From: Catellatospora vulcania
Lineage (GTDB): Bacteria > Actinomycetota > Actinomycetes > Mycobacteriales > Micromonosporaceae
NCBI RefSeq assembly: GCF_009720385.1
Contig: NZ_WARX01000006.1
Coordinates: forward strand, 62,001 to 126,000
Reading direction: 5' to 3'
Length of the DNA: 64,000 bases
Below the pieces are notes generated by a model. That model made no database searches, was not told the DNA's origin, and was given only the letters and a program-made list of their open reading frames with translations. Below, one piece after another: positions 55,133 to 57,899 of this stretch; the first letter of the stretch is position 1, and the number at the start of each line of letters is the position of its first letter. The position numbers were made by a program, and so were the translations under genes.

Positions 55133-55966
55133 ATGCAGCTCACCGTGGACCGCGGCAGCGACCGGCTCGGCGTACAGCTCCACCCGGCGCAGGCCCCCGA
55201 CGCGCCCCTGGTCGTCATCTTCCCCGCGATGGGCGTGCCGGCCGGCTACTACACCCGCTTCGCGCACTCCCTCAACGAGGCGGGCCTCGGCGTCGCGGTG
55301 GCCGACCTGCGCGGCACCGGCGCCAGCACGCCGGCGCCCAGCCGGCGCAGCCGGTACGGCTACCCCGAGCTCGCCGACGACGTCGCCGCGGTGCTCGACG
55401 CGCTGGCCGAACACCGCGCCGGACGGCGCACGGTCCTGCTCGGACACTCCCTCGGCGGGCAGGCCTGCGTGCTGCACCTGGCCCGCGAGGCCGCCCGCGG
55501 GGCCGGGCACAGCGTGGACGGGCTGGTCCTGATCGCGGTCGGGCTGCCGTACTGGCGCACCTACCCGCGGCAGCGGCTGGGCGTGCTCGCCATGACGCAG
55601 TTCGTCAACGCCGTCTCCGCCGTGCTGCGGGTCTGGCCCGGCTGGGGCTTCGGCGGCCGCCAGGCCCGCGGCCTCATCAAGGACTGGGCTTACACGGCCC
55701 GCCACGGCCGGTTCCCCGCCCACCTGGGCGCCGAGCCCGGTCTGTCGCAGGTGGACCTGCCGGTGCTCGCGATCAGCGTCGACGACGACCAGTACACCCC
55801 GCCGGAGACCACCGACCACCTCGTCGCAGCCCTGACCGGGGCGAAGGTCCAGCGCGACCACCTCACGACCGCCGACGCGGCCGCTCCCCTGGATCACTTC
55901 AAGTGGGTCAAGGCCGGCACCGCGCTCGCGCCCCGTATCACCGGCTGGCTGCCGATCCGCCACTGA
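55133..55966 (+). CDS. Alpha/beta hydrolase
   Basis: A 277-residue alpha/beta-hydrolase of the YheT/lysophospholipase-like type. 'PLVVIFPAMGVPAGYYTRFAHSLNEAG' is the oxyanion region, 'VADLRGTGAST' a typical strand, 'VLLGHSLGGQACVLHL' the nucleophile elbow with serine, and 'LAISVDDDQYTPPETTDHL' and 'APLDHFKWVKAG' the likely acid and histidine. The triad looks complete, unlike the hydrolase at 30164. Substrate unknown. Convergent with the P450 gene across a hairpin. Confidence 0.82.
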   Translation: MQLTVDRGSDRLGVQLHPAQAPDAPLVVIFPAMGVPAGYYTRFAHSLNEAGLGVAVADLRGTGASTPAPSRRSRYGYPELADDVAAVLDALAEHRAGRRTVLLGHSLGGQACVLHLAREAARGAGHSVDGLVLIAVGLPYWRTYPRQRLGVLAMTQFVNAVSAVLRVWPGWGFGGRQARGLIKDWAYTARHGRFPAHLGAEPGLSQVDLPVLAISVDDDQYTPPETTDHLVAALTGAKVQRDHLTTADAAAPLDHFKWVKAGTALAPRITGWLPIRH

Positions 55967-56027
55967 CCGCCCCCGCGGCCCTCGCTGGGCGCGACCGAGC
56001 CGGGCGGGATCCGCACCAAGGTCTTTC

Positions 56028-56086
56028 GACTTGCCAGGCACCTGGGCGAATGCGGGCTCAAGATACGCACAGGTGCCCGGCAAGTC
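56028..56086. repeat. 59-nt long hairpin between hydrolase and P450 genes
   Basis: GACTTGCCAGGCACCTG (56028-56044) pairs with CAGGTGCCCGGCAAGTC (56070-56086) with one mismatch, around a 25-nt loop. Lies 62 nt after the hydrolase stop; a terminator-like element between convergent genes, not similar to families A or B. Confidence 0.7.
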
Positions 56087-56156
56087 TGACGATCATGGGG
56101 CGGGCCCTCGGGCGGCCGGGGTCTGGATGGCCGGCTGATGCGCGGGACCGCCACCG

Positions 56157-56280
56157 GGCGGACCGTCAGGCCATGCCGGGGCCGGTCGGCGGACCGTCAG
56201 GCCATGCTGGGGCGGACGGCGGACCGTCAGGCCATGCCGGGGGTGGACGGCGGGCCGTCAGGCCGTGATCGGCAGGGTTG
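56157..56280. repeat. 30/31-nt tandem repeat overlapping the P450 stop codon
   Basis: Four imperfect units of the type GGCGGACCGTCAGGCCATG, starting near 56160, 56191, 56221 and 56252. The last unit contains the P450 stop codon and final residues; the others appear to be duplicated and drifted copies of that 3' end, extending the 3' UTR. Extra in-frame stops are not needed, so the coding sequence is unharmed. Confidence 0.7.
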
Positions 56281-57460
56281 CGTAGCCACGGAAGCCGAGG
56301 CGGTCGCGGCGGGTCGGGACGCCTGCGGAGCGCAGGTGCGGCAGCCGTTCCAGGAGCAGCGGGAACGCGACCTGCGCCTCCAGCCGGGCCAGCGGTGCGC
56401 CGAGGCAGTAGTGCGCGCCCGCGCCGAAGGACAGTGACGGCACAGGCGGCCGGTCCGGCAGGAAGTCTGCCGGGGCGGCGAAGCGGCGCGGGTCCCGGCT
56501 CGTCGCGGCGAGCACCACCAGCACCTCCGTGCCCGCGGGCAGCGCCACCCCGGCCAGCTCGGTGTCCTGCCCGGCGTACCGCGAGGTCACCTGCACCGGC
56601 GGGTCGAGGCGCAGCATCTCCTCGACGTACGCCTCGGTGAGCGCCGGGTCGTCGCGCAGCCGGGCCAGGTGCTCGGGCCGGTCGAGCAGCATGGCCAGAC
56701 CGTTGCCGAGCAGGTTGGTGGTCGTCTCGAAGCCCGCCACCAGCAGCAGCACCAGGTGCGCGACGAGCTCCGCCCCGCCGATCCGCCCGGCCGCGCCCGC
56801 CGCGAGCAGGTCGCTGATCATGTCGTCGCCGGGTTCGCGCTGCCGCCGCGCTAGCAGGTCGACGAAGTACTCCGACAGCTCCTCGCTCGCGGCGTCGGCG
56901 CGGGCCAGCTCCTGCGGGTCGCCGGCGAACACCTCCAGGGCCAGGGTCAGGTCCTGCGCCCGCGGCCGGAACCAGTCCCGGTCGGCGGCGGGCACGCCGA
57001 GCAGGGCGCAGATCACCGACACCGGCAGCGGGTACGCCAGCGTGTCCATGAAGTCCACCGGCCCGGCGGCCGCCGCGATGGGCTCGATCAGCTCGTCGGC
57101 GAGCGTGGTGACGTCGGCGCGCAGCGCCGCGACGCGCCGGGCGGTGAACGCCGAGCCCGCCAGGCGCCGCAGCCGGGTGTGGTCGGGCGCGTTGCGCCAC
57201 AGCATGGTGCGGCTCAGCCACTGCCAGGAGCCGACGGTGCGCCAGCCGGGCATCGCCCGGTCCAGCGCGACGGCGTCGGTGACCCGGAACGAGGCGTCCC
57301 GCAGCACCTGGTCGGCCTCGGCATGGCCGGTGACGACGGCGAACCCTTCGCCCAGCGGCACCACCGGGCCCGCCGACCGCAGCCGCTCGTAGTGCGGGTA
57401 CGGATCAGCCCGGCCCTCGGCCGTGGCCAGTGCCTGCATCGCCGCCAGTGCGTTCTGCAT
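56258..57460 (-). CDS. Cytochrome P450
   Basis: A 400-residue soluble bacterial P450 with GGGGAG 5 nt before ATG 57460. The I-helix oxygen-activation motif is 'VAGFETTTNL' (about 241-250; position of the acid is Glu), the K-helix ExxR is E281-R284, and the heme loop 'FGAGAHYCLGAPLARLE' holds the thiolate C352. All elements look functional. It has the closest similarity in style to CYP107/CYP105-like tailoring enzymes. Just upstream, on the same strand, is a 59-residue peptide gene, so the P450 may modify that peptide. No ferredoxin gene is adjacent. Confidence 0.88.
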   Translation of the reverse strand: MQNALAAMQALATAEGRADPYPHYERLRSAGPVVPLGEGFAVVTGHAEADQVLRDASFRVTDAVALDRAMPGWRTVGSWQWLSRTMLWRNAPDHTRLRRLAGSAFTARRVAALRADVTTLADELIEPIAAAAGPVDFMDTLAYPLPVSVICALLGVPAADRDWFRPRAQDLTLALEVFAGDPQELARADAASEELSEYFVDLLARRQREPGDDMISDLLAAGAAGRIGGAELVAHLVLLLVAGFETTTNLLGNGLAMLLDRPEHLARLRDDPALTEAYVEEMLRLDPPVQVTSRYAGQDTELAGVALPAGTEVLVVLAATSRDPRRFAAPADFLPDRPPVPSLSFGAGAHYCLGAPLARLEAQVAFPLLLERLPHLRSAGVPTRRDRLGFRGYATLPITA

Positions 57461-57551
57461 CGCCGCTCCCCTGCGCCGCCGCCGTATGGGGGAAGACTAC
57501 GACGCGGGGGCGACCAGACCGCCGAGCAGCGGCCGCGGACGGCCCGACCTG

Positions 57552-57731
57552 CTAGTCGTTGGGCGTCAGCGACATCGGCGTGCAGCCCGGCCCGGTGTGG
57601 ACCGAAGCGCAGCAGGCCGTGGTCCATGCGCCGTTGAAGACGGCGTGCCGGGCGAGGCCGGTGGCGGCGGGCCGGCGTGCGGCCGGGGCGGTCCTGGGGT
57701 CGCGCTTGCCCGCGTGCTCTGCCGTGATCAT
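57552..57731 (-). CDS. 59-residue Cys/Thr/Ser-rich peptide, possible RiPP precursor
   Basis: A short gene with an ideal AGGAGG 6 nt before ATG 57731 and TAG stop at 57552. The first 30 residues (MITAEHAGKRDPRTAPAARR...) are basic, Ala/Pro/Arg-rich and leader-like. The C-terminal 29 residues, from V31, contain the parts 'FNGAWTTACC', 'ASVHTGPGC' and 'TPMSLTPND' in order: three cysteines (C40, C41, C50), many Thr/Ser, one Trp (W36) and one Phe. There is no signal peptide. It precedes the P450 gene by 91 nt on the same strand, likely one transcript. Composition suits a ribosomally made, post-translationally modified peptide; however no lanthionine synthetase, YcaO or radical SAM gene is near, so the type is open. 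It could also be a small Cys-rich protein of other use. Confidence 0.6.
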   Translation of the reverse strand: MITAEHAGKRDPRTAPAARRPAATGLARHAVFNGAWTTACCASVHTGPGCTPMSLTPND

Positions 57732-57846
57732 GTACTGCCTCCTGGAACGTCGAATGCGCCACGACTATGCCATGGCCGTGCTCCAAGATCTGTCGCGTGC
57801 GTCGTCGGGGCCTGTGTGACAGTGCTTACCGGGATACGGACACGGC

Positions 57847-57878
57847 GAAGGGCGCCCACCCTCGGGTGAGCGCCCTTC
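57847..57878 (-). terminator. Terminator of the qcrCAB operon
   Basis: GAAGGGCGC and GCGCCCTTC arms, extended by CACCC/GGGTG with one bulged base, 22 nt beyond the qcrB stop and before the peptide gene promoter. Confidence 0.8.
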
Positions 57879-57899
57879 GTCAGGCGAACCGTTGCCAGG

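Follow-up and report, generated by a model that had tools for sequence, protein, structure and literature searches.

A Catellatospora-restricted peptide gene linked to a CYP164-like cytochrome P450, and its possible role as a client of that enzyme

Is the short, cysteine-containing open reading frame directly upstream of a cytochrome P450 gene in Catellatospora vulcania the precursor gene of a RiPP matured by that P450, or does it encode a peptide of a different kind? Two-gene pathways made up of a peptide and a P450 are hard to find because adjacency alone marks them, and a literature search, mostly of open-access texts, found no publication on this locus. The region was analyzed within a stretch of 64,000 nucleotides (hereafter the window) from the 8.8 Mb genome of this species, for which an initial annotation had proposed that the peptide and the P450 may suffice to make a RiPP, perhaps of a new type. 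The features concerned are listed below.

56258..57460, minus strand: cytochrome P450, 400 aa, with I-helix AGFETT, ExxR and heme loop FGAGAHYCLG
57466..57471, minus strand: Shine-Dalgarno-like GGGGAG of the P450 gene, 5 nt before the ATG
57492..57503, minus strand: GTCGTAGTCTTC, with a similar stretch before the P450 in related species (found by eye, absent from the promoter-scan output), possibly a promoter element of the P450 gene
57552..57731, minus strand: peptide gene, 59 codons, Catellatospora-restricted family, three Cys
57738..57743, minus strand: Shine-Dalgarno AGGAGG of the peptide gene, 6 nt before the ATG
57760..57774, minus strand: conserved box CATGGCATAGTCGTG upstream of the peptide gene, a possible promoter element
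57840..57884, minus strand: hairpin, strong (-32.5 kcal/mol) and without a T run, in the gap from qcrB to the peptide gene, probably separating qcrB transcription

The coordinates, strand, ATG and stop codon of the peptide gene were all as initially annotated, and so were the three Cys (at positions 40, 41 and 50), Trp36 and Phe32 of its product as well as the complete P450 gene that follows after 91 nt on the same strand with its own GGGGAG. The start region reads AGGAGG-CAGTAC-ATG, a spacing of 6 nt. The claim that this is the best Shine-Dalgarno sequence in the window was overstated: the site is strong, but it ties with three other AGGAGG sites located 4–10 nt before the starts of longer frames (268, 278 and 378 aa). 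A scan for sigma-70 promoters found none between positions 55950 and 57950, and one for terminators with a T run found none either. The C. vulcania genome holds one exact occurrence of the 13-mer of the upstream box and three with a single mismatch, compared to four matches for a control, and a regulon marked by it was rejected as these counts are no better than the control.

In the window copy, two antisense frames and one further sense frame are also open, and one antisense frame is open in 6/6 copies. As stops alone do not decide between the frames in five of the six, the coding case rests on the codon-position pattern and on protein similarity. Intact homologs of 58–59 codons with a conserved ATG and GAGG were found in five other species, in addition to one frameshifted homolog, and the GAGG of the Shine-Dalgarno sequence is present in all six aligned copies. 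When three sister pairs were summed, nucleotide changes numbered 9, 12 and 24 at codon positions 1, 2 and 3, respectively. The dN/dS values of the pairs (genomes are given by our own handles, with G000 being that of the window) were 0.20 for G000/G109, 0.33 for G051/G071 and 0.79 for G087/G129, the last being based on only 10 changes. The constraint on the peptide is modest, and its dN between G000 and G087 was approximately six times that of the P450 (0.30 vs 0.048).

An alignment of the six intact copies contained 18 invariant columns, of which 15 fall within residues 25–57 (G25, A27, R28, H29, N33, W36, C40, H45, G47, C50, P52, M53, S54, L55 and P57), giving a genus-wide C-terminal pattern of RHxxxNxxW...C...H...C.PMSL.P, and the N-terminal third was found to be variable across the two clades. 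All six are basic (pI 9.2–11.9) and each has exactly three Cys, the third adjoining C40 or C50 depending on the clade. The end of the window copy deviates most: it carries two additional residues, and T51 and T56 replace the R51 and M56 that the other five intact copies share. The C-terminal conservation anticipated in the initial annotation thus holds between the clades. It fails within two sister pairs of the three, in which replacement changes per site are more numerous in the C-terminal than in the N-terminal part (dN 0.078 vs 0.042 for G000/G109 and 0.082 vs 0.023 for G051/G071).

Within the genus, the peptide gene adjoins the orthologous P450 gene in 7/11 species, C. vulcania included. 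It is situated upstream of the P450 in five species, directly so and intact in G000, G109, G087 and G129. In the fifth, G125 (locus L029), a frameshift at about codon 32 divides the gene, both halves are family-like and the P450 is intact; the frameshift reflects either recent decay or a sequencing error. In the other two, G051 and G071, the gene immediately follows the P450 in the same orientation, and the next gene beyond it is convergent. No peptide was found beside the P450 in G100, G016, G118 and G133, and a genome-wide profile search of these four genomes gave no match better than E 0.1. No copy away from the P450 was encountered in any of the 11 genus genomes, the next best match in the C. 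vulcania genome having an E-value of 0.29. Records of C. coxensis NBRC 107359 and C. paridis NEAU-CL2 encode the same peptides as two of the genus genomes, and each of these two species has the peptide gene together with the P450.

Outside the genus, no convincing homolog of the peptide was found among 300 genomes of the family, 394 of the class (16 candidates scored per genome), GTDB contigs, plasmids and viral contigs. The GTDB contig collection held two peptide loci, both from Catellatospora; plasmids gave no match, and none of 40 pattern stretches in viral contigs was confirmed. Weak matches occurred in 11 family genomes outside the genus (E 7e-4 to 0.01), and the class search added 26 more in 25 genomes (E 1e-4 to 0.01). 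All 11 of the former and 25 of the 26 latter were read, and none resembles a homologous gene. Two of the loci that were rejected had partial motif similarity: L074 (CC..TH....CRP) lies inside a longer frame that by eye is lipoprotein-transferase-like, and the L080 match (C.RPMSL.P) is part of a 165-aa frame that two further frames, of 363 and 275 aa, overlap. A DNA pattern for C.PMSLMP matched 7/300 family genomes, namely six Catellatospora and G015, compared to two for the reversed control; the G015 match was discarded as it is out of frame in a gene judged by eye to be transposase-like. Diverged copies could escape this pattern, since it misses the window's own copy. The peptide had no match in NCBIfam, none at cut-off in Pfam or PADLOC, and none in a profile search of PDB sequences at E-values up to 10. 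Taken together, the peptide gene is real, fast-evolving, confined to Catellatospora as far as searched, and always adjoins one CYP164-like P450.

The P450 itself matched PF00067 with 102.3 bits (cut-off 22.8). Its best match among PDB sequences was CYP164A2 of Mycobacterium smegmatis (PDB 3r9b). P450s sharing more than 40% identity are placed in the same family, and the C. vulcania enzyme falls just within CYP164 by this rule, as a borderline case, with 159 of 384 aligned residues identical (41%). We know of no physiological role and no peptide partner of CYP164A2. None of the ten NCBIfam families matched by the C. vulcania P450 reached its cut-off, including ApyO, the sole RiPP P450 reference compared (75.9 of 525 bits). 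P450s with 58–59% identity were also found in 3/289 family genomes outside the genus (L119, L120 and L121; E ≤ 1e-125). The L119 gene has other neighbors, among them a frame that by eye is deformylase-like, and the peptide is absent there.

An orthologous P450 is present in 11/11 genus genomes (71–93% identical to that of the window), and by pairwise values it shows no relaxed selection where the peptide is absent (four species). For the P450, dN/dS was 0.15–0.21 when G000 was compared with three relatives that carry the peptide gene (broken in one of them), 0.19–0.24 for four pairs with the peptide-free G100 and 0.16–0.19 for two pairs of peptide-free outgroup species, all of these values being pairwise and not branch-specific. 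The enzyme therefore appears to have other work in at least four species and is not simply a dedicated maturase. Absence of the peptide beside orthologous P450s had been named in the initial annotation as an observation that would speak against the proposed pairing, and this is the situation in 4/11 species, where the P450 shows no loss of constraint. By our own, unpublished criterion, a dedicated pair should have the peptide wherever the P450 orthologue is kept; the peptide was found in 7/11 species and the P450 in 11/11. Of the initial proposal, what stands is a real, P450-linked gene with C-terminal conservation and outside the known aromatic motifs; the dedicated pair is not supported. The dependency runs one way, with the peptide accompanying this P450 in 7/7 species and the P450 occurring without it in 4/11, a pattern that fits a peptide turned optional client of an older enzyme.

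Trees built from qcrB with the hydrolase and from the P450 both placed the peptide-bearing species within one well-supported group of eight that also includes the peptide-free G100, with three outgroup species, all peptide-free, on the other side and G051 and G071 in a clade of their own. Because the six-species group holding the window genome and G100 is poorly resolved, the state of G100 may reflect either gene loss or branching before the upstream copy arrived. A box similar to that in the window (CRTGGCACAGTGGCG) precedes the relocated gene in G051 and G071. As the box (CATGGCAYAGTSGYG) is thus found before the gene in both positions, the gene apparently took its upstream region along when it changed position. 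The peptide and P450 had further been described as an insertion in an otherwise conserved segment from the Lrp/hydrolase genes to qcrB, which comparison with other genera supports without amounting to proof: none of 28 loci from other genera shows this P450, with qcrB following within 1.5 kb of the hydrolase, P450-free, in five loci and no qcrB there in 23.

The peptide was compared to three kinds of known P450-associated systems. Atropopeptides (tryptorubin type), whose cores carry two consecutive aromatic residues, share the two-gene layout of a short precursor gene and one P450 but are described with a KSLK-like motif and mined at 10–40 aa (PMC11450843). The Catellatospora peptide has 58–59 aa and shows neither a KSLK-like motif nor consecutive aromatics in any of the six intact copies, and this identity was rejected. 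Biarylitides likewise combine a peptide and a P450 with the precursor gene up- or downstream, as in Catellatospora, but their precursors are mined as peptides of 5–20 aa whose positions 3 and 5 are aromatic (PMC13417212), compared to 58–59 aa with other conserved residues here, and this identity was rejected as well. For the signatures compared, the earlier view that the peptide lies outside the known aromatic motifs was borne out. The [3Fe-4S]/[4Fe-4S] ferredoxins that adjoin P450s are, like the Catellatospora peptide, of approximately 60 aa and contain Cys, but they have the motif CXX?XXC(X)nCP and a pI of 3.7–4.4 (PMC6237146). The motif is found in 0/6 copies, no ferredoxin family matched, and the peptide is basic, not acidic (pI 9.2–11.9), so that this identity was also discarded. 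With all these signatures failing, the peptide can be filed under none of the three groups; if a RiPP precursor, it would represent a new variant of P450-modified peptides.

RiPP-type modification by the P450 is the mechanism that we prefer, if only tentatively. The P450 would be the older partner with a substrate of its own, and the peptide gene would have been acquired or born beside it in the ancestor of 8/11 species and have become its optional client. As a RiPP precursor, the peptide would have its basic N-terminus as the leader, comprising about residues 1–24 (a putative border), its C-terminal part would be oxidized by the P450 around the invariant His29, Trp36, Cys40, His45 and Cys50, and release may be due to a housekeeping protease. 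In favor of P450 modification, the peptide occurs only beside this P450 in 7/7 species and the link outlived a change in gene order (upstream in five, downstream in two), the invariant C-terminal columns include oxidizable Trp, His, Cys and Met, the P450 has kept its catalytic signatures and, by analogy, biarylitide precursors may also lie downstream of their P450 (PMC13417212). Against it stand the lack of a rise in P450 dN/dS in pairs with peptide-free species, the broken copy beside an intact P450 in G125, the greater C-terminal change in two sister pairs together with the loss of R51 and M56 in the window copy, and the scores of the P450 below every NCBIfam cut-off, that of the RiPP P450 ApyO included. 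No RiPP hallmark was found beyond the short ORF adjoining a P450. The six intact copies have no adjacent aromatics, no KSLK-like motif and, in the C-terminal part, no Tyr, and no protease, transporter or second tailoring gene is present among the neighboring genes. The order swap could, moreover, arise by local duplication without selection.

Two other explanations are nearly as likely as P450 modification. The three Cys and invariant His45 of all six intact copies, in which the number of ligands is kept while the position shifts, together with the basic character of the peptide, make it possible that this is a small, unmodified Cys3His metal-binding (Zn, Cu) or disulfide peptide, perhaps one that assists the P450 or the cytochrome bc complex nearby, and what counts against it is that no curated cut-off was reached in Pfam or NCBIfam and that no PDB sequence matched. 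It is likewise conceivable, if somewhat doubtful, that the peptide gene is an orphan that serves a function of its own and is no more than a neighbor of the P450, its change of side being due to local duplication and loss: a possible promoter box of its own travels with the gene, the P450 is kept without it in 4/11 species and constraint is low (the G000/G087 dN given above), but adjacency has been maintained in 7/7 species through the side change, and no copy is found elsewhere in the 11 genus genomes and no convincing one in others. Maturation of a RiPP precursor by enzymes encoded elsewhere in the genome (e.g. dehydration of Ser/Thr with formation of Cys rings) instead of by the P450 would suit the C-terminal Ser/Thr and Cys and the leader-like basic N-terminus, yet the peptide is linked to the P450 and no other RiPP enzyme was found within the stretch read, which makes this route unlikely. 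A cis-acting leader peptide (attenuator) controlling translation or transcription of the P450 would agree with the arrangement in the window, where 91 nt separate the short ORF from the P450 that follows it; since the peptide follows the P450 in G051 and G071, with the next gene convergent, this role is largely refuted, and with conservation at the protein level at the C-terminus it is very improbable.

In its boldest form, P450 modification would mean that a CYP164-like P450 was recruited to make RiPPs of a new class from a precursor of 58–59 aa, with an oxidized core around the invariant His/Trp/Cys/His/Cys set (e.g. carrying Trp-Cys, Trp-His or Cys-His cross-links), and that this class was born in one genus by parasitizing a P450 that keeps an older substrate. 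We consider this rather doubtful; if true, it would capture the origin of a RiPP pathway, whose gain, relocation, loss and decay could all be seen among 11 species. More generally, if the peptide is modified, the genus would provide a rare time series of a RiPP precursor attaching to an existing oxidase, and if it is unmodified, the locus would caution against taking each short ORF next to a P450 for the gene of a RiPP precursor. The pair also illustrates the reach and the limits of comparative evidence, in that a partnership is suggested by the linkage and the conserved C-terminus, and an older enzyme with other work by the survival of the P450 without the peptide. It also draws attention to the question of which function CYP164-like enzymes serve.

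Several repeats were observed around the locus. In G051 (L030) and G071 (L031), long palindromes with CATGATCG-like ends, identified by eye, lie just after the relocated peptide gene and before the hydrolase gene, and as repeats collect in this gap between the P450 and the hydrolase, they may have helped the rearrangement. Downstream of the P450 in the window, positions 56013–56100 hold a near-perfect palindrome of about 85 bp (-45 kcal/mol, z -5.3), with at least 57 matches to its family in the C. vulcania genome and at least 50, 47, 38, 52 and 8 in five other Catellatospora. Rfam gave only sub-threshold hairpin matches for it and no REP-type Y1 transposase (PF01797) was found in the C. vulcania genome; it is a genus-wide palindromic repeat without an obvious mobilizer. 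A tandem repeat of 31 bp in 3.5 copies occupies positions 56157–56264, its last unit entering the end of the P450 gene.
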